Shown one piece after another: positions 1,191 to 35,900 of a DNA stretch of 64,000 nt. The notes under the pieces are model-generated. The model was given only the letters and a program-made list of their open reading frames with translations. It had not been told where the DNA came from and did not search any database. The stretch is taken from positions 62,001-126,000 of the forward strand of contig NPFB01000029.1 in the NCBI GenBank assembly GCA_014084085.1, in the 5' to 3' direction. How positions within the stretch are numbered: the stretch's first letter is position 1; every line of letters begins with the position of its first letter. Position numbers and translations under genes: made by a program. The stretch is from Hondaea fermentalgiana. Taxonomy: Eukaryota; Sar; Bigyra; Thraustochytrida; Thraustochytriidae.

Positions 1191-2017
1191 TCTTTTTGAT
1201 GTCCCCGTGAGGTGTCCTCGAATTCGCGCACACCTTCAGTGTGCGCCAGAGATCGGCATGACATTGTAACCCATACCACCTCACCTCATCTCACCTCACC
1301 CAATCCCGTACTCCTCTTCGCCTCTTCGCCCTCGATTCCGCGCACCACCGGCCAGCCAGCCGCCACATTCGCCACGCCCTGTTTCTCCTCCTGCGCACGA
1401 CAGAGTCGCGGCGCTGAGGCCGGAAAGAAACCAACCTGGCCGGCGGAAGCTTTCTCCTTTCTATCCTTGCGCGCAAAAGAGAAAGAAGAAGAAGGAGGAA
1501 AAGAAAAAAAGCCAGGTTTTGCTCCGTCCTGAACCTCCTCTGTATCTTTCTCTTTCTTCATTAAAAGTCTTGTATCTGAAGTCTCTGCTCCTTTCCTAAT
1601 TAGCACCGGCTGCAATAATTACAAGAATATATGCTCAAATCGCGCGCGGCACGGCGGGGCGAAAGGCGACGGGGACCGAGACGGCGCAGGGCGGCCTCGT
1701 CCGACCGTCTGTCCCTGCGTGGCGCTGCGAGCCGTAGGTACCGCGTAGGACCCCGTAGGGCGGGGGCAAGATAGGCCTGACAAGTCTGCACTGACAGAGA
1801 CTGCAAGCGCGGACTCCGATCGCGTAGCGGCAGCAAGCAAACTCGCAACCTGCCGAGCCACGTCAAGCTGAGCCAAGCTAAGCCGAGCCGAGCCGAGCCG
1901 AGCCGAGCCGAGCGTAGAGTTGTTTGTCCGCTCCGCCCCACGGCCGACGCCGCTAGCGCGCGTGCGTGAGTGAACGAGCTCCCGTCGCGAGGCTATACGT
2001 GTAGTACTACAGACACC
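1191..2017. other. Upstream region and leader of the beta-oxidation gene
   Basis: No convincing gene. The first half is pyrimidine-rich and A-rich on alternate stretches. The part from about 1640 on is GC-rich and probably holds the promoter and 5' leader. A pentanucleotide tract (agccg x6, 1881-1910, with degenerate flanks from 1871) lies about 105 bp before the start codon. Confidence 0.6.
1871..1913. repeat. AGCCG pentanucleotide repeat
   Basis: Six perfect agccg units at 1881-1910, with imperfect units before them, in the probable 5' leader of the downstream gene. Confidence 0.95.
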
Positions 2018-4153
2018 ATGAGCGCACCCGGCACGAACCGCGTGGACCTCGAGGTGCGGCCGGACGGCTGCGCGATTGTGACGCTGGACCACTTCCCGCT
2101 GAACACGTTGAGCAACGCCGTCCAGCTGGGCATCGAGGATGCCGCCGACAAGATCGACGCCGACAAGAGCATCAAGGCCGTCGTCGTGCGCGGTGCTGGG
2201 TCCCGTGCTCTGTGCGCCGGTGCCGATATCGTGGACCTGAACAAGAAGCATGACCGGTACCCGCGCAAGGGTTTCATGGAGTACTTTGAGGACCTCAAGG
2301 TCCCCGTTGTGGCGGCCATTCAAGGCTTCACTCTGGGCGGCGGCCTCGAGCTCGCCCTTGGATGCCATTACCGCGTCATGGCCTCCAACGCCATGATCGG
2401 CCTTCCTGAGGTGAACATCGGCCTCCTCCCCGGCGGCCAGGGCACCCAGCGCCTGCCGCGCCTGATCGGTGCCGAGGCCGCTCTCGACTTTATGTGCTCT
2501 GGCGCCCACGTGCCGTCCAAGAAGGCCGCCGAGTGGGGCGTCGCCGACAAGGTGGTCCCCGCCGAGAGCCTTGTCGAGGACGCTGTCGCCTTTGCCCTGG
2601 AAAAGGCGAGCTCTAACCCGAGCAACTCGGGTCGCAAGATCAGCGAGGTTAAGCAGGTCCCGGGCAAGAAGGTCGATGCCGCCTTTTTCAACAAGATGCG
2701 CAAGCAGTACGCCGCCAAGCGCAAGGGCCAGACCGCACCGCAGCGCATCATCGACTGCGTCGAGGCCGCCACCAAGTCATCCTTCAAGGACGGCTGCGAG
2801 ACCGAGCGCAAGCTTTTTGCCACCCTCATTGGCAGTCCCGAGGCGAACGCCCTCCAGCACGTCTTTTTTTCGGAGCGTGGCGCTGCCAAGATCCCGGGCC
2901 TCAAGGCCAAGCCCAACAAGGTCAAGAAGGCCGCTCTCATCGGCTCGGGCCTCATGGCCGGCGGTATCGCCATGTCGCTCGCCGAAGCTGGCATCGCCGT
3001 CACGCTTCTGGATCGCGAGCAAAAGTTCATTGACAAGGGAATGAGCGTCATCAAGGCCAACTACGCCCGTAGCGTCAAGCGCGGCTCCAAGACGCAGGCT
3101 CGCGTCGACCAGATTCTCTCGCTCTTCAGCTCCACCACCTCGTACGAGGACATCGCTGACGCGGACGTTGTCATTGAGGCCGTCTTTGAGGTCATGGAGG
3201 TCAAGAAGGAGATCTTTGCTCTTCTCGACAAGCACTGCAAGCCGGACGCTGTTCTCGCTTCCAACACCTCTTTTCTCAGCATCGACGAGATTGCCAGCGC
3301 CACCAAGCGCCCGGAGAACGTCATTGGCATGCACTTCTTCTCCCCCGCCAATGTTATGCCTCTTCTCGAGAATGTGCGCGGCGCCAAGACCAGCGACGCC
3401 ACCATCGCGACCGCCATGGATGTCGGCTCGCGCATCGGCAAGTGGTGCGTCCTTGCGGGCAACTGCCACGGCTTTATTGCGAACCGCATGATGGCTAACT
3501 ACTCTGCAGAGGCCCGCAGCCTTCTCATGGAGGGTGCTCCTCTTACCGAGATCGATGGCGTCGCTGTCGAATATGGCATGCCTCTTGGGCCCTTTCAGCT
3601 GCGTGACCTTACCGGTGATGTCGGTTTTGAGGCTCGCAAGAAGCGCGGCGAGGTCAACACCGAGACGTCGGTTGACGATTGGCTCGCTGTCAACGGCCGC
3701 CTCGGCCAGAAGAACGGCGCTGGCTACTACGATTACGACGAGAACCGCAAGCGCACTGTGAACCAGTCTGTGCTCGACAAGATCGAGGCCGTTCGCAAGG
3801 TCAAGGGAATCACTGCGCGCAAGGTCGACAAGGAGGAGATTTTGCAGCGTCTCTTTTTGCCCATTGTCAATGAGGGCTTTAAGATCCTCGAAGAGGGCTT
3901 TGCCATTCGTCCTCAGGACATTGATGTTGCTCTTGTGCATGGCTACAACTGGCCGCGCTACCGCGGCGGCCCCATGCACTGGGCTGATGCCTACGGTCTT
4001 CCCAAGATCCTCCAGGCCCTCGAAGAATTCAGCAAGAAGAACCCCAAGGAGCACCTCCGTCCCTCCAATCTGCTCAAGGACTGCGTTGCCGCCAACCAGT
4101 CTCTTGCCGCGTACTGGGCCAAGAACTCCAAAAAGGTCAATGCCAAGCTCTAA
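2018..4153 (+). CDS. Peroxisomal multifunctional enzyme (enoyl-CoA hydratase / 3-hydroxyacyl-CoA dehydrogenase)
   Basis: The 711-residue protein has the MFE-1/EHHADH layout. An N-terminal crotonase domain (about 5-190) has LGGGLELALG with Glu111 and GLPEVNIG with Glu131; the 20-residue spacing of these two acids is that of the catalytic pair in the family. A 3-hydroxyacyl-CoA dehydrogenase part (about 300-690) follows, with the NAD-binding GSGLMAGG from residue 309 and catalytic His439 in GMHFFSP. The last three residues are AKL, a canonical type 1 peroxisomal targeting signal. Known role: steps two and three of peroxisomal fatty acid beta-oxidation. The start is the first ATG, in context acaccATGA; the frame is open further up only from a GTG. 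No intron is seen. Confidence 0.95.
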   Translation: MSAPGTNRVDLEVRPDGCAIVTLDHFPLNTLSNAVQLGIEDAADKIDADKSIKAVVVRGAGSRALCAGADIVDLNKKHDRYPRKGFMEYFEDLKVPVVAAIQGFTLGGGLELALGCHYRVMASNAMIGLPEVNIGLLPGGQGTQRLPRLIGAEAALDFMCSGAHVPSKKAAEWGVADKVVPAESLVEDAVAFALEKASSNPSNSGRKISEVKQVPGKKVDAAFFNKMRKQYAAKRKGQTAPQRIIDCVEAATKSSFKDGCETERKLFATLIGSPEANALQHVFFSERGAAKIPGLKAKPNKVKKAALIGSGLMAGGIAMSLAEAGIAVTLLDREQKFIDKGMSVIKANYARSVKRGSKTQARVDQILSLFSSTTSYEDIADADVVIEAVFEVMEVKKEIFALLDKHCKPDAVLASNTSFLSIDEIASATKRPENVIGMHFFSPANVMPLLENVRGAKTSDATIATAMDVGSRIGKWCVLAGNCHGFIANRMMANYSAEARSLLMEGAPLTEIDGVAVEYGMPLGPFQLRDLTGDVGFEARKKRGEVNTETSVDDWLAVNGRLGQKNGAGYYDYDENRKRTVNQSVLDKIEAVRKVKGITARKVDKEEILQRLFLPIVNEGFKILEEGFAIRPQDIDVALVHGYNWPRYRGGPMHWADAYGLPKILQALEEFSKKNPKEHLRPSNLLKDCVAANQSLAAYWAKNSKKVNAKL

Positions 4154-5442
4154 GTTATATCTATCATAATTCTCCCCACCCCTCCACATACATGTCCATT
4201 CATTTTGCACTTTGATGTCGTTGCTGTTCTCGCTCTCATTTATACTGTTGCCTCAGGCCGTCAAGTCCAGCTTGCGCACGGCTGCGAAATACTTTCATGT
4301 CGTCTGTGGCGCAAGCAGCCATTAAAGATGAAAGTATGCACGCTACTTTTTGTCATGTCGGCAAGCTCGTCTTCTGTCATAGTCGACGGCGGCGACGCGA
4401 CTTGACCATGCCACGATGACTGCATTTCATCGCAGTGCACGCACGCTTGCGTCCCACGTTCGGCCCCAGCTCGGATCGAGCGAGCATCGGAACCGACTGC
4501 GACGGGTAGCGAGAGACTCCCCGCGCCCGAGTCGATGTCACGGTCATCATCCCCGCCTCGCCCATGATTGCCGGCTGGGACGCGGGGAGACTATCGCGTC
4601 CCGGCTGCACTGGCGACACCGGGTCGTTGACGGCAGAATCATCTTCTTCGCGTCACGATTCCGGCGTCGGCGAGGCACACCAAGAAGGCAAGGCATCAAT
4701 CAATCTACTATCTATCTGTCGATCGCCTCGAGTTGCTCCGTGCAGATTCCGCCGCCGCGCGAGGCTCTCCTGCGACCCAGCCGCAGCCCGTGTAGTAGTG
4801 TGGGCCTCGTCTCTTGCATCATCCATGGCATCTTCTGTGCTGCTGGTGCGTCCCAAGCCGGCCCTTGGTGGTGCGGTATAAGTCAGCGTACACCATGGCT
4901 TGCATTCACAGCTCAGCCCGGCTGAGAGCGCAGAGGGGACGCAGCCCAGGCGCGCCCCGGTGAGGCGCAGCCCCGCGGGAGAGAGTCACGAGAGCTGCTG
5001 CGAAGGTTTCCAGAGCTGCGCCGCCCGTGGCTCCGGAGCCGCGCCGCCCGGGCAGGCTGCGAGCGCGAGTGCGTGCGTGCGTGCGTGCGTGCGCGCTTCT
5101 GGCTGCTCGTGCGCAGTCGACGTCGTGGCGTGGCTTTGCCTCGAGCTGGTGGAGGTGCTTGTGGCGCTGCTGCTGCTGCTGCTGCTTGGGAGCGGGTGAC
5201 AGGAGGAAGAAGACTCAGCGGAGCAGGTGGCGCACAGACCCTGGGTGGAGGACTTGGATGATCGACAGAGCGAACGAAATTTTCTCCGCGCACACGAACG
5301 GTCCTGACTGTGAGTCACTGTGACCTCATCAGAACTTGAGTTAGCTGGGCTTGGCTTCTGGCTTGGCGTCTCGGGCAGAACAAAACCGAATTGGAGGCGA
5401 AAAAGGCGACGAGGAAAGACGAAGCTTGCAGAGCAGGCAAGG
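4154..5442. other. Intergenic region before the ThDP-ALDH fusion gene
   Basis: No convincing gene in 1.3 kb. The first ~250 bp is AT-richer and fits the 3' untranslated region of the upstream gene. The rest is GC-rich. A tataag sequence at about 4875 could be a core promoter element. Simple repeats occur at 5069-5092 (gtgc x6) and 5166-5187 (gct/ctg). The fusion-gene frame is open without a stop from 5320, but its first ATG in good context is at 5443. Confidence 0.5.
5069..5092. repeat. GTGC tetranucleotide repeat (x6)
   Basis: Six perfect gtgc units in the probable leader or promoter of the fusion gene, followed at 5166-5187 by a ctg run. Confidence 0.95.
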
Positions 5443-8400
5443 ATGGGCGACGACAAGTCGAAGATCAAGGTCAGCGACCTGCTGGTCAAGGCGCTCGAGA
5501 ATGAGGGCGTCGAGTACGTGGTGGGCATCCCGGGAGAGGAAAACCTGGACGTGCTCGAATCGCTGCGCAAGAGCAAGATCAAGGTGATCCTCACGCGCCA
5601 TGAACAGGCCGCAGGCTTCATCTGCGCCACCGTGGGCAGACTCACGGGCCAAGTCAAGGCCGTCGCTCTCTCCACGCTCGGACCCGGAGCGACAAACTTT
5701 ACCACGGCGGCGGCATTTGCGCATCTTGGCGGCATGCCCTGCGTCTTTCTCACGGGTCAAAAGGGCATCCGTAGCACCAAACAGGCCGAGTTCCAAATTG
5801 TTGATATTGTCTCCATGTACCAGCCCCTGACAAAGTATGCCAAGACCATCACCGACGGCAACCTCGTGCCGTCCATGGTCCGTCGCGCCTTCCGCGAGGC
5901 AACCACCGAGAAGCCCGGCCCGACGCTCCTCGAGCTGCCCGAGGATATTGCCTCCATGCAAACCGAGTTCAATCTCTTTGAGCCCACGCCTGTTCGCCGG
6001 CCCGTCACCGACGAAAAGGGCACGCACGGTGCGGTCGACATCCTCCGCAATGCAAAGAGACCCATCATGATCGTCGGCGCAGCTGCCAACCGCCACCGCG
6101 CACGTCGGGCCATTCGCGAGTTCGTCGACGAGCTCAAGATTCACGTGGTTTCCACTCAAATGGGCAAGGGTGTTGTCGACGAGCGAAGCGAGTTCTTTCT
6201 CGGATGCGCCGCCATCAGCTCCAAAGACTACATCCACGCCGCTCTCGACATTAGCGACGTCATCATCATGGTCGGCCACGACACCACGGAGAAGCCTCCC
6301 TTCATCATGTCTTCGGGCGCCTCGTCCCGAAAGGTCATTCACATCAGCTTTGATCCCGCGCACGTCGACTCGACGTACTTTCCGCAGGTCGAGATTGTGG
6401 GCGACTGCGCCAACGCAGTCTGGCAAATTAAAGAAAAGCTGCGCGCCGACAACAAGGTCTTTGATGCTGCTCCCTTTCGCCGCATCAAAGAGTACACCGA
6501 TGAGTGCATGCAGCCTGGCACCGATGATGATCAGTTCCCCATGAACGTCGCCCGCGTCATCACCGACATGCGCAAGGTGCTTCCTGACGATGCCATTCTT
6601 AGCCTCGATAATGGCCTGTATAAGGTCATGGTCGCGCGCTACTACAAGGCTGTCGAGCCGCTCACCGTGCTTCTCGACAATGCCCTGGCCACTATGGGCG
6701 CCGGTCTGCCAAACGCCATCGGCACCAATCTGGTTAGCCCGGACCAGCCCGTCGTCGCCATTTGCGGCGACGGCGGCTACCTCATGAACAGCGAGGAGCT
6801 CGCCACCGCCGTCCAGTACGGCTTCAACATCACCGTGCTCGTTCTCAACGACAACGCTCTCGGCATGATCAAGTGGAAGCAAGAGGGCATGAACTTTGAC
6901 GAGTACAACTTGGACCTGCGGAACCCCGACTTTGTCAAGCACGCCGAGGCCTTTGGCGCCCAAGGCCATCGCGTGTCCAAGACCGAGGAGTTTGCCGACG
7001 TTCTGCGCCACTGCATCGGAACCAAGGGCGTCCACGTCGTCGAGGTCCCCGTCACCTACCGCTGGGTCTCGGACATGCTCGAAAAAGTGCCATCTGAGGC
7101 TTCGGAGATTTTGCGTCGCATCGTCGACGAATTTGGCGAAGACATTCTCCTCGGAGACTCCCTTCCTCCCTCGTCCAAGGAAGAAGCTGACGAGGCCTCC
7201 AAGGAGGCTTCCGAGGAATGCACCAAGCGTCTTGACAAGGTGCGTCGCTCCAACTCGGAGCGCTCCTCGACATCGGAGACCAAGGGCTGCGAAGAGTCCC
7301 AGCAAGAGAAATCAGCTTCCAGCTCTTCGGCCACCAAGTCCTCCTCGGAGTCGAAGTCAAAGTCTGCTTCGACATCGGAAAAGAGCGAGAACAAGTCCAC
7401 ATCGCAGAGCGACAGCAAGGAGAGCGAGAAGTGGAGCATCAACAAGGGCGACAGCGTCCCCTTTTACCTCGTGGGACGTCCCGTGTACGCCAATGAGGAC
7501 CTCGAGGTGATGGACAAGCACACCAACGAAGTCTTTTGCAAGGTGGCTGTCGCAACCAAGTCCGACATGGAGACCGCCATCCACGAGGTCTCCACCACGG
7601 GAGCCCGCAAGATGGCAGCCCTTCCGCACTACGTGCGCAAGGAGATCCTCATGAACGTTGCGCGGGAAGCGCGCCGCCGCAGCGAAGAGCTTGCCATGAT
7701 GACCACCATCGAAAATGGTAAGGCGATCAGTGACGCTCGCGGCGAGGTCGAACGCCTTGTGCAGACCTTTGAAATCGCTGCCGAAGAAACGGTTCGCATG
7801 TATGGCGAGGCCGGCGACATGGACATTGCCAAGCGTGCCCACGGGTACCAGGGCATCGTCAAGCGCTTCCCGCGCGGTCCGGTCAGCATGATCTCCCCGT
7901 TCAATTTCCCGCTCAACCTTTTGGCCAGCAAGGTTGCACCGGCGATTGCCGCGGGCTGCCCCTTTGTCGTCAAGCCCGCAAGCCGCACTCCGCTTGGTTC
8001 CTTGCTCGTGGGCGAGATTCTCGCCAACGACCCTAACATGCCCAAGGAAGGATTTTCCGTGCTGCCTTGCACGCGTGAGTCCGGCGATGCTCTCACGACC
8101 GATGACCGCTTCAAGCTTCTTTCCTTTACCGGTTCCGCCTCCGTCGGCTGGGAACTCAAAGCGAAAGCGAGCAAGAAGCACGTCGTGCTCGAGCTTGGCG
8201 GTAACGCTGCCTGCGTTGTGGATGATCTCGATGAGGGGCTCGACACAGTCGTCCAGTCCATCACCACGGGTGCGTTCTACCAAAGCGGACAGAGCTGCAT
8301 TTCTGTGCAGCGACTCTTTGTGCACGAGTCCATTTACTCCCGCTTCAAGGATGCCTTTGTCGAAAAAGTAAAGAGTCTCAAAATGGGCGACCCCAAGGAG

Positions 8401-8904
8401 GAGGATACCTTCCTTGGCCCCGTCATCAGCGAGAAAGATGCTGATCGCATCACAGAGTGGATCAAGGAGGCTACCGACAAGGGCGCCAACCTGCTCACGG
8501 GTGGAAACAAGCAGGGCACGAACTTCGTGGAGGCCACCGTGCTCGAGAATGTTTCGCACGATTGTACCATTTACAACGAGGAGCTCTTTGGCCCCGCCGT
8601 CTGCCTCGAGCCGTACTCGGACTTTGCCTCGATCGTCGACGAGGTCAACAACTCCCGCTATGGTCTTCAGGCGGGTGTCTTCACCAACAACCTCTCCAAG
8701 GCCCACTACGCCTTTGAGAACATGCACTGCGGCGGCGTGGTCATTAACAATGTGCCGTCGTACCGCATCGACTCCCAGCCGTATGGTGGCGTGAAGGACT
8801 CCGGCCTTGGCCGTGAGGGTGTGCGCTATGCCATCGAGGACATGACCGAGATGCGCATCATGCTCATGAAGGAGCCTGGCAAGCTCCGAGACACCAAGCA
8901 GTAA
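5443..8904 (+). CDS. Fusion: ThDP-dependent acetolactate-synthase-like enzyme + aldehyde dehydrogenase
   Basis: One uninterrupted 1153-residue frame joins two complete enzymes. Residues ~10-570 are a ThDP enzyme of the acetolactate synthase/IlvB type: the activating Glu54 in TRHEQAAG, the flavin/substrate-region motif STLGPGATN, and the ThDP/Mg motif GDGG at 442-445 followed by LNDNALGM. Residues ~572-664 form a Ser/Lys/Glu-rich, probably disordered linker. Residues ~667-1140 are an NAD(P)-dependent aldehyde dehydrogenase with SFTGSASVG, general base Glu917 in LELGGN and nucleophile Cys952 in GQSC. All key residues are present, so both halves should work. An obvious idea is that the first half forms an aldehyde from a 2-oxoacid and the second oxidises it; the substrate cannot be read from sequence. 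No targeting signal is clear. The ATG has an ideal context (aaggATGG). Confidence 0.95.
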   Translation: MGDDKSKIKVSDLLVKALENEGVEYVVGIPGEENLDVLESLRKSKIKVILTRHEQAAGFICATVGRLTGQVKAVALSTLGPGATNFTTAAAFAHLGGMPCVFLTGQKGIRSTKQAEFQIVDIVSMYQPLTKYAKTITDGNLVPSMVRRAFREATTEKPGPTLLELPEDIASMQTEFNLFEPTPVRRPVTDEKGTHGAVDILRNAKRPIMIVGAAANRHRARRAIREFVDELKIHVVSTQMGKGVVDERSEFFLGCAAISSKDYIHAALDISDVIIMVGHDTTEKPPFIMSSGASSRKVIHISFDPAHVDSTYFPQVEIVGDCANAVWQIKEKLRADNKVFDAAPFRRIKEYTDECMQPGTDDDQFPMNVARVITDMRKVLPDDAILSLDNGLYKVMVARYYKAVEPLTVLLDNALATMGAGLPNAIGTNLVSPDQPVVAICGDGGYLMNSEELATAVQYGFNITVLVLNDNALGMIKWKQEGMNFDEYNLDLRNPDFVKHAEAFGAQGHRVSKTEEFADVLRHCIGTKGVHVVEVPVTYRWVSDMLEKVPSEASEILRRIVDEFGEDILLGDSLPPSSKEEADEASKEASEECTKRLDKVRRSNSERSSTSETKGCEESQQEKSASSSSATKSSSESKSKSASTSEKSENKSTSQSDSKESEKWSINKGDSVPFYLVGRPVYANEDLEVMDKHTNEVFCKVAVATKSDMETAIHEVSTTGARKMAALPHYVRKEILMNVAREARRRSEELAMMTTIENGKAISDARGEVERLVQTFEIAAEETVRMYGEAGDMDIAKRAHGYQGIVKRFPRGPVSMISPFNFPLNLLASKVAPAIAAGCPFVVKPASRTPLGSLLVGEILANDPNMPKEGFSVLPCTRESGDALTTDDRFKLLSFTGSASVGWELKAKASKKHVVLELGGNAACVVDDLDEGLDTVVQSITTGAFYQSGQSCISVQRLFVHESIYSRFKDAFVEKVKSLKMGDPKEEDTFLGPVISEKDADRITEWIKEATDKGANLLTGGNKQGTNFVEATVLENVSHDCTIYNEELFGPAVCLEPYSDFASIVDEVNNSRYGLQAGVFTNNLSKAHYAFENMHCGGVVINNVPSYRIDSQPYGGVKDSGLGREGVRYAIEDMTEMRIMLMKEPGKLRDTKQ

Positions 8905-9011
8905 AATCACCGCTCTGGTATTGCACCCATCACTTTACATACTTTATCCAACTAACAGCTCAATATCCTACATACAATCATCGTCCTCACATCATGTTAC
9001 AACGCATTACA

Positions 9012-9563: not shown

Positions 9564-10153
9564 CGTGATACGTGTTGTCAATACGATGCAAGATGCTAAT
9601 CTGGGCCATTCTTTGCTCCGAGTCGCTCCGAGCACGAATTCTTTTCTATTTTCCAACTTTTTTCTTTTTTTTTAGTGACCGTTACGAAAGCTGCAGGACT
9701 TGGACTCGGACTCGCCGTGACTCAGATGAGACTGTCAAAGACTGCGTGTCCAAGTCTTGGCATGTACTAGCTTGTTGTTCTTCATGTGACTTGCAAAGCT
9801 TTCGCACTGCCAGTGGACTTCCTGTCTTTCGAAGCTGTAGCTGGCTATACGTTTCCGACCAAGGACGTTTCCCTCCCACGTCTTCAATTCGGGAGGAAGG
9901 GGAAGAAAACTTGGCAAGGTTTTTGGCCAGCAAAACCGGTCGCACCACCGGCGCGCGGCGTTCGCGCTTGCGCGGCCGCTTGAGGCAGACGTGCGGGCAG
10001 GCGCACGTAACGTGACGTAGCGACGAGAGTCGTCGTCGCCGCAATTAAAAAGGTCCCCAAAGAGGTTCAGGAAGGCAGCGCACATTGATCGAAGCGCAGC
10101 AACGCTGGTCGGATTGTGCGTCAGTCACCAAGGTGCAGAGACAGGTTGGGAAC
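9564..10153. promoter_or_regulatory. Divergent promoter region, coiled-coil gene / kinase
   Basis: A 590-bp region between two divergent starts, without a convincing gene. It is less GC-rich in the middle, with a T run at 9657-9674. It must hold both promoters, but no individual element can be named. Confidence 0.5.
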
Positions 10154-12385
10154 ATGGACAAATACGAGGTGGTAAGACACATTGGGCAAGGCGCCTTTGG
10201 CGAGGTGACCGAGTGCATTGAGCGCGTCTCCGGCGACCGCGTGGCCGTCAAGGTCATCTCGAACCGTAGATATGATACCTGGGACGAATGCCTCAAGCTC
10301 CGAGAAGTTCGCGCGTTACGTGCGCTCAAGTCCAACCACAAGAACATCGTAGTGCTGCGGCAGATCGTGCGAGAAAACAAAAAGCTGTACCTTGTCTTCG
10401 ACTACCATCCTCGTAACCTGCACGCACGCATCCAAGAGGTTCGCCAGCGCGGCGGTTGCTTTGGCCTCGACCTTATTGCGCGATGGACATACCAACTTGT
10501 CTCTGCTCTCGCCTATATGCACAGATACGGTTTCTTCCATCGCGACATCAAGCCTGAAAACCTTCTCTTGGATAGTGACGACGGCATCCAAGTCTGTGAT
10601 TTTGGACTGGCGCGGGATGTGCGCTCGAGACCGCCATTCACCTCTTACGTGTCAACCAAATGGTACCGAGCTCCGGAACTTGTGCTGCGCGCGACAATGT
10701 ACAACTCACCGGTTGATATTTGGGCTGCGGCATGCGTCGCAGCAGAGTGTCTGACCCTTAAGCCGCTCTTTCCAGCTCAGGATAAAGTCGAGCACATGCT
10801 CATGATTACAAGTCGCGTCGGGCCCGTGACCTCCAAGTCGTGGCCTCAGGGAAGCGCAATGCTCCTGAAGCAACACCTGCAACTACCTCCAAGCAAAGCT
10901 TCTGCGCCCTTGTCCGCACACCTTGTCTCTGAGTTCGAAAAACTCGAGTCTGCAGAGGCAGTAGCCAGCCCAGCGCTGCGTCATTGCGTCAGTCTCATTG
11001 TAGACATGCTGCAGCTGGACCCACATGCCCGACCGTCAGCGCCGCAATGCTTGGCGCATCCTTTTCTCAAGGAATGCAATGAACGCGTGCAAACCTTGCG
11101 CGATGGCCTGCAACACGACGCAGAACCAGACAATTTCAAGGTGGACACAACCAATTCGCCCAGTGGGCTACAGCGCCAAGCTAAGAAAGAGTCCAAAGTT
11201 ACGTCTAAAAATGTGACGCGTGCAAAGTCCCCTCGTCGCAACATTTGCAGACGTGACAGCGAGCTTAAAATTCTGACGCAAGAAATTGACGAGTTGACGC
11301 GGGAGATTCAAGACATTTCCACGAGTCCTGACGGAGCCAGCAGCGGCAAGGCCACAGCAAGTCAAGCGTTGCTGCCTAGTTCTTCCGTTCTCGACACCTC
11401 ACAGCTGGGGGAATTTGCAGGATCAGCCTCGAGTGATGGAAATGGCGACGACAGCGAGGAAACGAGCTGCACCGACACAGACTCGGAAGGGCTTCCTCCC
11501 TCTCCCATGCGCACAGGCGTAGCTGCGCCGCCTCGTATTCCTTTTGGCAGGACCTCGAGTATGGAGCGACGTAGAGTTGTTTCTGCTTACCTGCAGACGC
11601 TTGATGACGACGACGACGATGACGACGATGGCGATGACGACGATAATGACGAAGGCGACAGTGGGAGCGATAGCACCAGCGAAAAAGCGGAAAGCGACGA
11701 TATTTCGCGCAGGCTTGCTGCACCTCCCACCACCAAGTGGAGTCTTGATCGTGACTGTAGTCAAAAGGTCCAAGAGACCTTGGCGGCGGAAGATGCGGAC
11801 GCTGGACAACAAGGCGCAAGACGAGCTGAATCGGCAAGAGATATGCGAGGGGCGCGGTCCTTTCGTGTGCAGGCGCTTCAGCAGGACATCATCGCGGCCG
11901 AGGAGATACCTGTAAAGGCCTATTCGGCGCGAGAAAGGGTCACCAGCGTGGAGGGACCAACCTCGCCCGTTTCTTTTGCGGATCAACAGCAGCAGCAGCA
12001 GCAGCAAGACGCGATTGAGATTTGCAGCATTGGGTCTGAGTTCTCGCCATTGCAGCAAATGGACGACAGTGAGCGCGAGGCTAATGAGAGCACTGAACAC
12101 GCAGAACAGCCAGCCGAGCAACAACAGGTTTGTCGTCGTGAGTGTGAAGACGATCTGAGCATGCTTATTGAGGGCAAGAGGCCTGATGAGCGTATCGAGT
12201 CAAAGTTTAGTGAAAGCGGCACGAATGGTACTGGGCTTTCAAGTCTCGAGAGCCCTCTTGCGCCGACTTGTGCGAGCAAACGTTGCCGGCAAGCCATCGA
12301 GCAACTGCGAAGGCAGGTTCGTGAGCGCGATGCAATCATTGCTCGTCTGCAAGAGCAGCTGGCAAACGGGCATAACCCCGTATGA
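10154..12385 (+). CDS. MAK/ICK (RCK)-like CMGC protein kinase with long acidic tail
   Basis: The 743-residue protein starts with a full kinase domain (about 1-300): glycine loop GQGAFGEV, Lys33 in VAVKV, HRDIKPEN with Asp131, DFG with Asp149, and STKWYRAPE after the activation loop. The activation loop has TSY at 163-165 where MAPK and MAK-type kinases carry TEY or TDY. The overall shape is closest to the RCK group (MAK, ICK, MOK, LF4), whose known members act at cilia and flagella and control their length. The tail (~300-743) is disordered, with a long Asp run (about 485-505), a Gln run and a short terminal coiled coil. The start has A at -3 and G at +4; the open frame begins earlier only because no stop intervenes. 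Confidence 0.85.
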   Translation: MDKYEVVRHIGQGAFGEVTECIERVSGDRVAVKVISNRRYDTWDECLKLREVRALRALKSNHKNIVVLRQIVRENKKLYLVFDYHPRNLHARIQEVRQRGGCFGLDLIARWTYQLVSALAYMHRYGFFHRDIKPENLLLDSDDGIQVCDFGLARDVRSRPPFTSYVSTKWYRAPELVLRATMYNSPVDIWAAACVAAECLTLKPLFPAQDKVEHMLMITSRVGPVTSKSWPQGSAMLLKQHLQLPPSKASAPLSAHLVSEFEKLESAEAVASPALRHCVSLIVDMLQLDPHARPSAPQCLAHPFLKECNERVQTLRDGLQHDAEPDNFKVDTTNSPSGLQRQAKKESKVTSKNVTRAKSPRRNICRRDSELKILTQEIDELTREIQDISTSPDGASSGKATASQALLPSSSVLDTSQLGEFAGSASSDGNGDDSEETSCTDTDSEGLPPSPMRTGVAAPPRIPFGRTSSMERRRVVSAYLQTLDDDDDDDDDGDDDDNDEGDSGSDSTSEKAESDDISRRLAAPPTTKWSLDRDCSQKVQETLAAEDADAGQQGARRAESARDMRGARSFRVQALQQDIIAAEEIPVKAYSARERVTSVEGPTSPVSFADQQQQQQQQDAIEICSIGSEFSPLQQMDDSEREANESTEHAEQPAEQQQVCRRECEDDLSMLIEGKRPDERIESKFSESGTNGTGLSSLESPLAPTCASKRCRQAIEQLRRQVRERDAIIARLQEQLANGHNPV

Positions 12386-14436: not shown

Positions 14437-16518
14437 CTAAGGAGTTGAGGCCTTGGGTTTCGCAGTATCCACAAGCGGAAAATTCTGCTGAATAATTCGA
14501 CGCAAGTCGTCGACTGACTGGATGGAGAGTCTGGGACGAGACTCAAGAGGTGATGCAGGACCACCAAAGTCCTGCTCGTGAAAGCCAGAAGCTCTCGTCT
14601 CTGTCCTTGCCAGAGTGTCCGCTTCGTCGTCAGCTGGGTCCTCTAGCAGTCTGATGTGCGCCGTGAAAAGCTCTTGAATCTTTACGCTGGAAAGCGGCTG
14701 TACACTCGGGATCAGCGCCCTGGTACTTCGGTGTGGCGAGGTCGGGCCGATTCGAATCTTGCCTGCTCGGAAGGTGGCTTGTCGGACAAGTGCAGGGCTC
14801 GGCGTTGTGATCTGCCCGCGAGCTGGCATGCCGCGAAAAGTGCCCAACCGGATGCTCTGCTGGAGCAATTGCGTGAGCTGGAGCGCCTTAAGCTCAACCT
14901 GGCCAAGAACATGCATGACATGATCATCGCAGACCGTGCCGTCGATAAGTCCAATGTGACCGCCGAGTGTGGTGTTGAAACGCGTCATGATGCGTTCGAC
15001 CGTCACAAATGTGAGCTCGCGCGACTTTTCTCGGTCCTGGATGGAATCGTTGAGACGGAGATTTTGTTGGCGAAGCGTTTCGAGCCGCCTTTGCAGCTCT
15101 CGACGAATTCGTTCCTTATTCTGGTCCTCTTTGCCCTGCTGGCTCGTGAGGCGACCCATTTCGTCGCGAAGGTTTGCGATCTCAGTTTCAAGTTGAAAGT
15201 TTTCGTCCTGAATCCCTTGAATATAGCTGAGCAGAGAAAACGCATCGTCATAATCATCAACGTAGTTCTCGACGACTTCGCTGAGCGTCATTGGTTTGTC
15301 GGAGCGTGCTGGAACCTCTGCAAGAATTTTCTCAAAGGCCTCTTCGTAATTGAGAAGCGTGAGTTGATGCGTGGCATCGATCTCGTGCGATTTCTTCTCG
15401 ATCTTTACAGTGAGCGACTGAAGACGCGCCTTGAGCTTGGCCTCTTCCTCGGGGTCAAGACGTCCTCTACCAAGTTGCTCCCGAATTTGATGGGCACGAC
15501 GTTTGAGCGAGGCCGTTTGCATTTCTGTCTGGATGACCTCTTGCTTGCGGACAATGCCTTCGAGACGATCAAGTTCGCTGTTCGCTTTTTCCTTTGCAAT
15601 GCTTTCCTCGCGTTCGACGCGCTTGAGGTCCTTCTCCGCACGGATCCGGTTCGTGATGAGCTCATTGGAAGATCGGAGGAGGTTTGCCATTTCCTTTTGC
15701 TTTTGCTCAAAGTCAGCGCGCAGCTTGCATTGAATGCTCTCAAATGCCATTCGTTCCTTGCGTCGCTCGTTGATTGAGGCCTTGAGGGCGTTGTTTTCCA
15801 CATTGATGTCATTGCGACGTAGATGCAATCTCTCGAGTTTTGTATTGAGGATTTTAGTGCGTTTGGCTGCTTTAAGCTTTTGATCAAGCGTGGCGCGCAC
15901 GCCGCCTACGTTCCGCATGCGCTTCTTCTCCTCGATGATGCGCTGCTGAATCATTTGCTCTTTGAGTCCGAGGCTTTCAAGTCGTCCTCGAAGAATTTCT
16001 GTTTTGCGAAGACACCTTTCGACATTCTCTTGCATTTGTTGACGTTCCAAGAGTGGATCCTTTGGCGGACTCTCATCCTCGTTGGGATTGTTGTTGTTAC
16101 TGCTGTTGCTGTTTTTGTTTCGTCGCTTCGAGGTGGATCCGCGTCGGCGGCCTCCCGATACGATGGAGTTGCGCTGGTCATTGAGGGCTTTCTGCTTTTG
16201 TTCTGCCGCAGCAAGAATGGCCTGCATGACCTCATCCTCGATACCAAGTAGAGAAGCCTTTTTGTCTTTGCGCTTCTTTAGCTTTTTCTTCTTTTTCTTT
16301 ATTAGCTTTTTCACGTGCGTTCCCATCTTTGGCGAATCCGTATCACCATCATATGCAGTCTCTTGCTTCGGAGTTGGCGACGCTTTTGTTGCCCTCAATC
16401 GTTTCTTGCGTTTTGTACGAGCCTCGCCGCAGCGTGCCTCGCGGGCGTACTCATTATCTTCTCGCTCGTCGCGAACAATCTCTCCTTCGCAAAGATCGAG
16501 CGCGTCGCCGTCGTCCAT
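14437..16518 (-). CDS. ODAD1/CCDC114-like outer dynein arm docking protein
   Basis: The 693-residue protein has a charged N-terminus with a very basic Lys run (about 68-88) and an Asn-rich segment. Long coiled coils follow from about 155 to 530. The stretch around residues 215-335 (KILNTKLERLHLRRNDINVE, then LKASINERRKERMAFESI) has the pattern of the ODA1/CCDC63/CCDC114 family: paired short helices, a conserved Leu-Arg-x-x-Arg region and a following NELI/EE segment. Family members anchor outer dynein arms to axonemal doublet microtubules. A disordered tail of ~160 residues ends the protein. It is convergent with the coiled-coil gene upstream, with ~220 bp between the stops. Homology was judged by eye and should be confirmed by a profile. 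Confidence 0.75.
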   Translation of the reverse strand: MDDGDALDLCEGEIVRDEREDNEYAREARCGEARTKRKKRLRATKASPTPKQETAYDGDTDSPKMGTHVKKLIKKKKKKLKKRKDKKASLLGIEDEVMQAILAAAEQKQKALNDQRNSIVSGGRRRGSTSKRRNKNSNSSNNNNPNEDESPPKDPLLERQQMQENVERCLRKTEILRGRLESLGLKEQMIQQRIIEEKKRMRNVGGVRATLDQKLKAAKRTKILNTKLERLHLRRNDINVENNALKASINERRKERMAFESIQCKLRADFEQKQKEMANLLRSSNELITNRIRAEKDLKRVEREESIAKEKANSELDRLEGIVRKQEVIQTEMQTASLKRRAHQIREQLGRGRLDPEEEAKLKARLQSLTVKIEKKSHEIDATHQLTLLNYEEAFEKILAEVPARSDKPMTLSEVVENYVDDYDDAFSLLSYIQGIQDENFQLETEIANLRDEMGRLTSQQGKEDQNKERIRRELQRRLETLRQQNLRLNDSIQDREKSRELTFVTVERIMTRFNTTLGGHIGLIDGTVCDDHVMHVLGQVELKALQLTQLLQQSIRLGTFRGMPARGQITTPSPALVRQATFRAGKIRIGPTSPHRSTRALIPSVQPLSSVKIQELFTAHIRLLEDPADDEADTLARTETRASGFHEQDFGGPASPLESRPRLSIQSVDDLRRIIQQNFPLVDTAKPKASTP

Positions 16519-32989: not shown

Positions 32990-35900
32990 ATGCGCGCGCG
33001 TCGGCCCAGACCAGTCGCGTGGGCTGCCCGAGCCTCGCCCGCCGCGCTCGGACTTCGAGCCCGAGCGTGGCCTCGCGCGACGAGCAGCATTGCCACACGT
33101 GCGCTGGCGACCAAAGTAAACGTGCCGCCACCACCCACCGCAGCGTCTTCTTCTTCTCCACTATCTTCAGAGGTGCGTGAGCGCTTTCTCGCGAGCTTTG
33201 AGCGCGACGGCCACGCTCGCGTGCCGTCGAGCTCCCTCGTCCCAGATAGCGGGGATGCTTCGCTTCTCTTTACCAACGCGGGCATGGTGCCTTTCAAGGA
33301 GGTTTTTCTCGGACGCGACCAGAGACCTTATACGCGCGCCACGAGCTGTCAGAAATGCGTACGCGCCGGTGGCAAGCACAACGATCTAGACAATGTTGGC
33401 TACACCGCGCGCCACCATACCTTTTTTGAGATGCTTGGTAATTTCTCCTTTGGCGACTACTTCAAAGAAGAAGCCATTGTCAAGGCATGGAACTTTGTGC
33501 GCAACGATCTCGATTTACCCGCTCACCGCCTGAGTATCACCGTCTTTCATGAAGACGACGAAAGTGCCGAGCTTTGGCGAAAGATTCTCCCGCCCGAAGC
33601 CGGTCCCATCACCCGTCTCGGCAAAGAGGACAACTTTTGGTCCATGGGCGATGGCAAAGGCGTGCCCTGCGGCCCTTGCTCAGAAATATTCTTTGACACA
33701 GGGGACACCGAGGCCGCCGATGATGATCGCTATCTCGAAATTTGGAACCTTGTCTTTATGCAATTCCAGGCCGATGGCAACGGTGGTCTTGACGCACTGC
33801 CGCGCCCTTGCGTCGACACTGGCATGGGTCTCGAGCGCGTCTGCTCTGTTTTGCAGGGTGTGCCCACCAACTATGAAACGGACCTCCTGGCCCCGCTGGT
33901 GCAACAGGCTGCTGCCATAGTACCCGTCAAAGACCACCCCAATGCTACCGTCTTTGCCAAAATCGCCGCGGATCATGTGCGGGCTGCGGCTTTTCTCATT
34001 GCCGACGGTGTCGTGCCAAGCAATGTGGGGCGTGGCTACGTCTTACGACGCATCCTTCGCCGAGCTGTAGGATTTGGCCATTCCGTCGGGCTCCGGGAAC
34101 CTTTCCTCGCGGCGCTTCTCCCCACACTTGAGGCGACCTTTGCTGCCTCCAACCAATACCCGGAACTGACGGAGCGTCGCGGTGCTATTGCCTCTGTCGT
34201 TCAGGCCGAGGAAACCAACTTTTTTCAGACGCTGGATCAGGGCATGGACTTTTTGGAAAAGCATCTCCAACGTGCCAGCGCTGGCCAAATCGTGGATGGC
34301 GCCTTTGCCTTTAAAATGTATGACACCTTTGGCTTTCCCGTCGATATCACAACGCGTGTCGCGCAGGACCGCGGTCTCCAGGTCGATCTCGACAGTTTTC
34401 GGGTCCATATGGAGGCTCAACGTGCACGCTCAAGTGCAAACGCTTCCTGGGCCAGCGACAGTGCCTTTGGGATGCGCGATCCGACCGAAGAGGTCCGTGC
34501 CTGGGCCGGCCAGGGCGTTCAGGCTCATTTTTCTGGTCACGAATGTACCCAAGAGGCGCATGCGCATGTCTTGGCCAAGGCCCCTGGGGCCCAGCCCGGA
34601 ACCACGTGGGTTAGTATCTCTCCTTGCCCGCTATATCCAGAGGGAGGTGGTCAGCAGAGCGATCGTGGCACGCTTTCGTGTGCACAGGGCAATGACTTTC
34701 CCGTCCTTCACGTGTGCAAGCCCTTTGAAGACGGTCTCGCCGTGCTCGTTGAGGGATCCCCGGAAAACCTGCCCCCTGTTGGCAGCGCTCTCTCGGCTGT
34801 TGTCGATGCCAGATCACGACGCGGTGCAGCTGCCCACCATACAGCCACGCATCTTTTGCAAGCTGCCTTGCGCGCCGAGCTCGGTGAACATGTTGTGCAG
34901 GCCGGATCGCTCGTCACATCTGATCGCTTGCGCTTTGATTTTACGCATAGTGCTCCACTCTCCACAGACCAGGTAAGTATTCGCGGTGAAGAAGGTAAAA
35001 GTGCTTCTTTGTTCGAGAAAGAGAAGGGCGGTGTGGGGGTGAAGAGGAAGATGTCAAGGAGAATGGCGAGAAAATGCATTCATGTGTAGGGGCACTTCTT
35101 GCTTCCACGTTCGCGTGGATGCCATGTAGAAGATGCCCCAAGGAACGAGTGCGACATTGACTGCCCTGTGCGTCCGCGCCAGACACGCCGTGATGCTTGC
35201 GCGTCTGCATGGTCGCGACTGCAGGGCTCACATATTCCTCCTTGTCCTCAAAGCCTGTTTCGGTTTTGCAACGACAGCAAATGGTTGACTGACATTGACC
35301 ACTTCATTTGTTCGATTGTATGCGTTCATTTACTTGTAATACAGATTCGTCGCATTGAGGCCTGCGTTAACGGTTTCGCAGAGCAAGCGATTGATGTGCA
35401 GACACAGACGGTGAGCCTCGAGGAAGCCAAGAAAATGGATGTTCTCATGCATTTTGGCGAAAAATACGGTCAAGAGGTTCGCGTCGTCCGTGTTGCTGGT
35501 GAGGCCGACCCCAACATGCCCGTGACCCATTCTGCCGAGCTTTGTGGTGGCACGCACGTTACCAACACGGCCGTGCTACACCCCTTTAAAATTGTTGCGC
35601 AGAGCAGCGTGGCCGCGGGGACACGCCGCGTCGAGGCCGTCGTCGGCGCCGCCGCCCGCGTTTGGATGCAAGAGCGTGTTGATACGCTCGAGAACATTGC
35701 CACCGAGCTCAAGGCTGATGTACGACCGGAAGCTGTTCAAGCGGCGATCCGCAAACTTTGCGAAACACAGCAGCGTCAAAAGGCTGACATCAAGGCTTTG
35801 CAGAAACGAATTCTCGAAGCTTCTGCGGCGAATGGCGGCGCCTCGAGCGAGAATGGAAACGCACCCAGCAAAGCGACCTCGGAGACTGTTGCGGTACACG

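Follow-up and report, generated by a model that had tools for sequence, protein, structure and literature searches.

Introduction

What reaction is carried out by a single protein in which a thiamine diphosphate (ThDP)-dependent enzyme is joined to an aldehyde dehydrogenase (ALDH)? The question is raised by a gene of the thraustochytrid Hondaea fermentalgiana that occupies positions 5443-8904 on the forward strand of the window, the stretch of 64,000 nucleotides analysed here (contig NPFB01000029.1, positions 62,001 to 126,000). The gene is a fusion with two complete active sites; its halves can be placed in families and clades, and their bacterial counterparts are encoded as operon partners. 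From its sequence and that of its relatives, the fusion can be assigned with good confidence as a putative bifunctional 2-oxoglutarate decarboxylase–succinic semialdehyde dehydrogenase, and the aldehyde passing between the halves would most likely be succinic semialdehyde. A preliminary description of the locus had proposed that a 2-oxoacid decarboxylase or carboligase feeds an aldehyde to an oxidising enzyme, and the family, residue and neighbourhood evidence presented below supports that proposal.

Integrity and domain layout of the fusion gene

One open frame of 1153 codons encodes a ThDP-enzyme half, a low-complexity linker and an ALDH half. The frame is already stop-free from 5320 (GTG), and 5443 is its first in-frame ATG, which gives a protein of 1153 amino acids; the stop codon is at 8902-8904. 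All Pfam matches were above their cut-offs: TPP_enzyme_N at residues 9-125, TPP_enzyme_M at 197-328, TPP_enzyme_C at 389-535 and Aldedh at 685-1138. Accordingly divided, the protein consists of the ThDP-dependent half (residues 1-539, 5443-7059), the linker (residues 540-672, 7060-7458, as delimited by an alignment of 24 fusions) and the ALDH half (residues 673-1153, 7459-8901). Glu54 (5602-5604), which corresponds to the ThDP-activating Glu50 of the Microcystis 2-oxoglutarate decarboxylase MaKGD, the ThDP- and magnesium-binding motif Gly442-Asp443-Gly444-Gly445 (6766-6777), Glu917 (8191-8193) and Cys952 (8296-8298) are invariant in the 24 aligned fusions; the roles of the last two, as general base and catalytic nucleophile, are established for ALDHs. 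The preliminary description was thus right that both halves are complete with these key residues. Among 26 candidates scored in the rest of the 36-Mb assembly, the nearest other ALDH is 35% identical and the nearest other ThDP enzyme 28% identical.

The linker had been described as about 90 residues long and continuous in frame. Its continuity is borne out, while its length, 133 residues, is somewhat greater. It is rich in Ser, Glu and Lys; in the other 23 aligned fusions the linker measures 56-128 residues and often differs in composition. The third-position GC content is 0.79 for 5443-7095, 0.73 for 7096-7440 and 0.77 for 7441-8901, and so stays high right through the linker, as expected of one coding frame. 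The closest relative, P0002, shares 80% identity across 99% of the length and is a complete open reading frame on one MMETSP/EukProt transcript, with the same domain order and a linker that is likewise rich in Ser, Glu and Lys. Because P0002 carries the same joined order on one transcript, two separate transcripts or an assembly join are unlikely here. A frameshift or join at about 7150-7440 had been named as the weak point of the fusion; the frame there is free of stops and the coding signal continuous. The low complexity of the linker could be taken to mean that an assembly or gene-model error merged two genes. We rejected this explanation, whose probability is negligible, because the identical joined order is widespread in other sequences, transcripts among them, and the coding signal is unbroken across the linker.

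A structure predicted for the monomer from 24 sequences (mean pLDDT 74.8, pTM 0.51) has two folded halves joined by a linker of low confidence. Residues 600-661 and several loops of the halves have pLDDT below 50, and the model is uninformative on the mutual placement of the ThDP and ALDH halves.

Long open frames also lie opposite the gene, at 5341-7305 and 7357-8910 on the reverse strand; these most likely arise as a by-product of its high third-position GC.

The C-terminal half is an ALDH21-type dehydrogenase

The best solved relative of the ALDH half is ALDH21 of the moss Physcomitrella (5mz5, 574.5 bits, 54% identical), followed by the Burkholderia enzymes 5j6b, 5jry and 5kf0 (543-557 bits), and a fold search with the predicted model agrees with these matches. 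The ALDH tree groups the fused halves with moss ALDH21, apart from the ALDHs of bacterial operons (100/100). The closest solved relative and the position on the moss side of the tree both place this half in ALDH21. The model for succinic semialdehyde dehydrogenases of the ALDH5 type, TIGR01780, scored 318.2 bits with the window half, under its cut-off of 646.35; another gene of this genome reached 642.5 bits, just below the cut-off, and is ALDH5-like.

The residues tell the same story. In ALDH21 an arginine pair holds the substrate carboxylate, and the serine that follows Lys-Pro-Ala belongs to the cofactor motif; Kopecna et al. (2017) reportedly found Arg121 and Arg457 of the moss enzyme to bind substrate. 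The window protein has Arg771 (7753-7755), Arg1108 (8764-8766) and Ser847 after Lys-Pro-Ala. The two arginines, presumed carboxylate ligands, fall at moss numbers 121 and 457 provided that the crystal chain carries an 18-residue tag. The pair is present in 35 of 36 ALDH21-type fused sequences (P0027 is cut short) and in all 20 fusions with a second ALDH type described below. It was likewise found in 17 of 19 ALDH21-type genes at bacterial loci (two are cut by the end of the locus), in 5 of 5 second-type locus genes and in 12 of 17 further ALDH-bearing listed matches (27-58% identical), and in none of 7 other, distant ALDHs.

Moss ALDH21 is reported to be a cytosolic, tetrameric, NADP-dependent succinic semialdehyde dehydrogenase, and we predict the same activity for the window half, which shares its sequence, fold, catalytic residues, Lys-Pro-Ala-Ser cofactor motif and arginine pair. 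The solved moss protein differs in being unfused, whereas the window ALDH is joined to a ThDP enzyme as the second half of a bifunctional protein. Since the moss enzyme was studied as a protein in its own right and discussed as part of the gamma-aminobutyric acid (GABA) shunt, the ALDH half might merely clear succinic semialdehyde from that shunt and be functionally unrelated to the ThDP half. We regard this as very improbable: the gene order recurs and the fusion was made repeatedly, including a separate one with the second ALDH type. In addition, the one glutamate decarboxylase model used, TIGR01788, reached at best 120.5 of the required 380.4 bits in this genome, in a six-frame search that is blind to introns.

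The N-terminal half is a relative of cyanobacterial 2-oxoglutarate decarboxylases

The best NCBIfam model for the ThDP half is NF006187 (PRK08322, "acetolactate synthase large subunit"), with 720.7 bits against a cut-off of 509, which makes the half a member of this family. The acetohydroxyacid synthase (AHAS) model TIGR00118 (354 of 538.35 bits) and the AlsS model TIGR02418 (347.4 of 551.1 bits) both remained below their cut-offs.

Enzymes with a proven function exist nearby. According to excerpts of PMC10418658, MaKGD of Microcystis decarboxylates 2-oxoglutarate and yielded no aldehyde with five other 2-oxoacids, its E50A variant is inactive, KGD is a tetramer, and its homologues include ScKGD (SYNPCC7002_A2770) and StKGD (sll1981). 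Of the matches to a KGD bait sequence, 120 were listed, and the named ones among them are cyanobacterial. Among the 57 matches of exactly 550 amino acids, 48 agree with the 17 MaKGD residues of PMC10418658 in both identity and numbering, and the remaining 9 deviate at one residue each, 8 of them at the last position and 1 elsewhere. P0265 of Synechocystis, recovered by the same bait, scores 879 bits with PRK08322, its best-fitting model, which indicates that the "acetolactate synthase" label also covers orthologues of proven KGDs. The acetolactate synthase name used for this half in the preliminary description is here mainly a database label. As an equivalog name, it is probably wrong for many members of NF006187.

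The window half keeps 11 of the 17 MaKGD residues, including Glu50, Lys386, Ala408, Met410, the Gly-Asp-Gly-Gly motif (MaKGD 434-437, with Asp435), Asp462, Lys471 and Tyr531. Two of these are lysines that contact 2-oxoglutarate in the docked MaKGD complex: Lys386, which is Lys394 in the window protein (6622-6624), and Lys471, which forms a docked salt bridge and is Lys479 (6877-6879). After the removal of 7 sequences that offered no usable match, ALDH-only proteins for example, both lysines were found in 120 of 120 KGD sequences, 120 of 120 standalone relatives and 31 of 31 fusions (P0002-P0032). They are also present in 20 of the 24 fusions P0033-P0056 (the other 4 are gapped at the first site), in all 36 locus sequences and in 11 of 13 further ones. 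None of the 29 AHAS-like sequences (one of them gapped at the second site) and none of the 3 paralogues of this genome has both; the AHAS-like sequences mostly carry Gln or Phe at the first site and Trp or Gly at the second.

We considered whether the ThDP half might be a true acetolactate or acetohydroxyacid synthase with an ALDH passenger. Apart from the NF006187 label, the fold search matched this half to AlsS, and its best-scoring solved relative, 13bb (425.8 bits), was deposited as an acetolactate synthase; these points weigh against a decarboxylase, as does the fact that 13bb aligns a Met with the first lysine, the second being present. Nevertheless, both synthase models scored under their cut-offs, Lys479 takes the place of the AHAS Trp at KGD position 471, lysines occupy both sites that differ in AHAS-like enzymes, the labelled family also holds KGD orthologues, and acetolactate is not an aldehyde. 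By the family scores and the residue at the AHAS Trp position, membership in AHAS does not apply and an acetolactate synthase function was rejected; a passenger arrangement of this kind is hardly credible.

In glyoxylate carboligase a Val replaces the catalytic Glu. That enzyme was rejected as a candidate, given that Glu54 is present and invariant in 24 fusions.

Bacterial operons pair the same two enzymes

The preliminary description had suggested looking for the same fusion or for adjacent bacterial genes, and both exist. A ThDP gene lies directly upstream of an ALDH21-type gene in Burkholderia stagnalis, in an Alcanivoracaceae metagenome-assembled genome (MAG) and in a deltaproteobacterial MAG, and match coordinates give the same arrangement for three more Burkholderia records; in Oceanospirillum and Polarisedimenticola the ALDH gene is alone within the fetched stretches. 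The operons of the four Burkholderia records and the Alcanivoracaceae MAG, with 5j6b, 5jry and 5kf0 as solved ALDHs of this kind, resemble the fusion in both partners (PRK08322 and ALDH21 type) and in their order, with ALDHs 51-57% identical to the window half, and differ from it in that the genes are separate.

A sample of 349 genomes was taken from the phylum to which the Alcanivoracaceae MAG belongs; 101 of them had a match and 20 an ALDH match of at least 50% identity. In 14 of these 20 the ThDP and ALDH genes are neighbours that share a strand and follow the fusion order, with gaps of -77 to 234 bases between matches; with the two best candidates per genome scored, one of the other six has both genes far apart and five have no listed ThDP match. 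At 29 new loci, the ThDP gene is directly followed by an ALDH gene in 18, of which 13 carry the ALDH21 type and 5 the second type.

The most informative set was the order to which a Phycisphaeraceae MAG belongs. Among 61 genomes of this order 20 have an ALDH match and 10 of these also a ThDP gene (E 1e-90 or better), which in 10 of 10 cases lies just upstream of the ALDH21-type gene; the matches are separated by no more than about 100 bases in nine cases and by 641 in one. By residues and identity, 3 of the ten ThDP genes are of the window type and 7 of the KGD type, the latter being 45-51% identical to cyanobacterial KGD and 35-41% to the window half. Directly upstream, six of the ten loci have a member of the glutamate dehydrogenase family, and these loci include both the window type (L092, L093) and the KGD type (L005, L095, L097, L098); none was found upstream at L094, L096, L099 and L100. 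The upstream genes of L092, L093 and L097, and a second copy in L098, score above the cut-off of the model for NADP-specific glutamate dehydrogenase; for the remaining upstream genes glutamate dehydrogenase models match best, with scores under cut-off. Glutamate dehydrogenase interconverts glutamate and 2-oxoglutarate. That one three-gene arrangement occurs with both ThDP subfamilies would be expected if each of them makes succinic semialdehyde from 2-oxoglutarate.

Evidence against 2-oxoglutarate as the substrate

Several observations argue against this assignment. First, the ThDP half lies in a sister clade of KGD and outside the KGD clade itself, in a quick tree whose outgroup branches are long; it is on average 38% identical to KGD. 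Six of the 17 mapped residues differ (Q254S, V382N, A384L, H385Y, Y465L and L467M in KGD numbering), among them three of the six 2-oxoglutarate contacts, which for MaKGD come from docking and not from a crystal. Of the properties that mark KGD/OgdA, the half thus shares the coupling to an ALDH21-type partner and lacks both the clade and the full residue set, its enzyme activity being predicted. Second, the KGD-type operon enzymes are themselves imperfect: all seven have Cys for Ala408, two have Gly for Gln254 and four have a changed glycine in the Gly-Asp-Gly-Gly motif, and L005 is the only one of them placed in the tree. Third, 11 of the 29 new loci have no ALDH gene directly downstream, in stretches reaching about 1.5 kb downstream, and three plasmid-borne ThDP genes, of Palleronia, Pseudomonas VLB120 and Tistrella, have none within 6 kb. 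This result indicates that the pairing is common and not universal. The gene of Pseudomonas sp. VLB120 (L025), which is of the window type, sits on the conjugative plasmid pSTY near srp solvent-efflux genes.

The active-site loop reads Asn-Gly-Leu-Tyr-Lys in the window protein versus Val-Gly-Ala-His-Lys in KGD, and the two conserved lysines would be compatible with any dicarboxylate. The ThDP half could accordingly use another dicarboxylic 2-oxoacid, such as 2-oxoadipate or oxaloacetate, or couple a carbanion derived from 2-oxoglutarate to a second carbonyl, with the ALDH half oxidising the product. We consider this unlikely, since glutamate dehydrogenase precedes window-type and KGD-type genes alike in the same order, and since moss ALDH21 is reported to act on succinic semialdehyde.

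Distribution and history of the fusion

The order of the two halves had seemed unfamiliar among eukaryotic enzymes; the fusion also occurs outside this genome. With the whole protein as query, 177 relatives were found, and the counts that follow refer to the 120 listed. A ThDP C-terminal domain and an ALDH domain occur together in 57 of them, the window protein included. The carriers include liverworts, ferns, green algae and one red alga: named sources are Riccia, Calypogeia, Ceratopteris, Coccomyxa, Elliptochloris, Ostreobium, Bryopsis and Rhodosorus, and shorter fusion models come from Marchantia and Adiantum. Two further fused sequences are, as we guess from the style of their gene names, from Mesotaenium and Spirogloea.

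Besides the window protein, 36 of the 56 fused sequences have an ALDH of the ALDH21 type (47-84% identical) and 20 one of a second type (31-36%). In the quick tree of ThDP halves, 27 ALDH21-type fusions and six standalone proteins form one group (SH-aLRT 99) and nine second-type fusions a separate group (SH-aLRT 99), so that the joining of ThDP enzyme and ALDH occurred at least twice. The second-type fusions (20 of P0033-P0055) are like the window protein in ThDP family, order, arginine pair and, where the sequence is complete, both lysines, and unlike it in the type of their ALDH and their separate fusion event. This second ALDH type also occurs downstream of the same kind of ThDP gene (L040, L045, L046, L047, L048), again with the arginine pair, and the pairing is a separate, convergent one. 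The standalone proteins within the fused group, P0125 of the diatom Seminavis robusta together with P0121-P0123, P0126 and P0129, suggest later splitting of the fusion.

Moss ALDH21 falls beside the streptophyte fusions in the quick tree (SH-aLRT 86), and the fused sequences were kept apart from it in 0% of 200 bootstrap trees. The approximately unbiased test rejected neither one clade of all fused sequences without the moss protein (p 0.066) nor one clade of streptophyte fusions with it (p 0.395). We tentatively propose, at slightly less than an even chance, that a fusion of ancient eukaryotic origin provides many algae, as well as early land plants and this protist, with a complete, extramitochondrial and NADPH-yielding shortcut from 2-oxoglutarate to succinate, moss ALDH21 being a remnant after loss of the ThDP half.

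A partial ALDH21-type sequence of Perkinsus olseni (P0065, 762 amino acids, in a cluster of 13 sequences) has only an ALDH domain listed and is named succinate-semialdehyde dehydrogenase in its source.

Proposed reaction and relation to known pathways

The substrate, cofactor, cellular location and advantage of tethering that we infer for the fusion combine into the following scheme. The ThDP half would decarboxylate 2-oxoglutarate non-oxidatively to succinic semialdehyde and CO2; the semialdehyde would leave this half and be oxidised to succinate with NADP+ by the ALDH21 half, giving 2-oxoglutarate + NADP+ + H2O -> succinate + CO2 + NADPH as the net reaction. This would place the cyanobacterial bypass of 2-oxoglutarate dehydrogenase within one polypeptide, whose flexible linker may hold the reactive aldehyde near the enzyme that removes it. 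A joint tetramer is conceivable, because KGD and ALDH21 are both reported to be tetramers. The protein is probably cytosolic, as no N-terminal presequence or C-terminal peroxisome signal is evident by eye and moss ALDH21 is reported to be cytosolic.

In most eukaryotes, conversion of 2-oxoglutarate to succinate is thought to go via the mitochondrial dehydrogenase complex. If the proposed reaction is correct, an NADPH-making and probably cytosolic bypass would alter how models describe the flow of carbon, nitrogen and redox equivalents in algae, ferns, liverworts and protists, and would supply a reason for a cytosolic NADP-dependent succinic semialdehyde dehydrogenase in lower plants. It further points to a large number of misnamed "acetolactate synthases".

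The nearest known system is cyanobacterial. In Synechococcus 7002, ogdA and ssaD (A2770-A2771) form an operon whose locus tags run in the order of the fusion (excerpts of PMC5160925). OgdA/KGD, including MaKGD, is a ThDP enzyme of the same NCBI family with both 2-oxoglutarate-contacting lysines, and its operon partner SsaD is a semialdehyde dehydrogenase. In contrast, these are two separate proteins and the window ThDP half is of a sister subfamily; its ALDH partner is of the ALDH21 type. PMC4224347 describes the cyanobacterial decarboxylase as having the sequence of an acetolactate synthase and as differing from its Euglena and Mycobacterium counterparts, and mentions a putative OGDC of land-plant chloroplasts, probably of cyanobacterial origin and labelled acetolactate synthase. 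Euglenids have the same net pathway in a eukaryote, through a 2-oxoglutarate decarboxylase route that, according to excerpts of PMC6630311 and PMC8219788, is mitochondrial and, unlike the fusion, uses separate enzymes. We found no description of a ThDP-ALDH fusion in the openly accessible literature, which mostly leaves subscription journals outside its scope, and none is mentioned in the portions of PMC10418658, PMC7823795, PMC6630311, PMC8219788, PMC4224347 and PMC5160925 consulted. The one-protein bypass is thus probably a fused form of a pathway already known from cyanobacteria, the fusion itself being apparently new.

Other genes of the window

Upstream of the fusion, 1970-4153 (+) encodes a bifunctional enoyl-CoA hydratase/3-hydroxyacyl-CoA dehydrogenase (Pfam ECH_1, 3HCDH_N and 3HCDH). 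Its C-terminal Ala-Lys-Leu resembles a peroxisomal signal. Downstream lie a protein kinase with a long acidic tail (10085-12385, +), a class II (A) tRNA synthetase domain of the alanyl type (32990-35089, +) and a class I tRNA synthetase with a leucyl-type editing domain (45845-48469, -). The gene at 14437-16518 (-) encodes an ODAD1 (outer dynein arm docking) coiled coil, which suggests that the organism may have flagellated cells.

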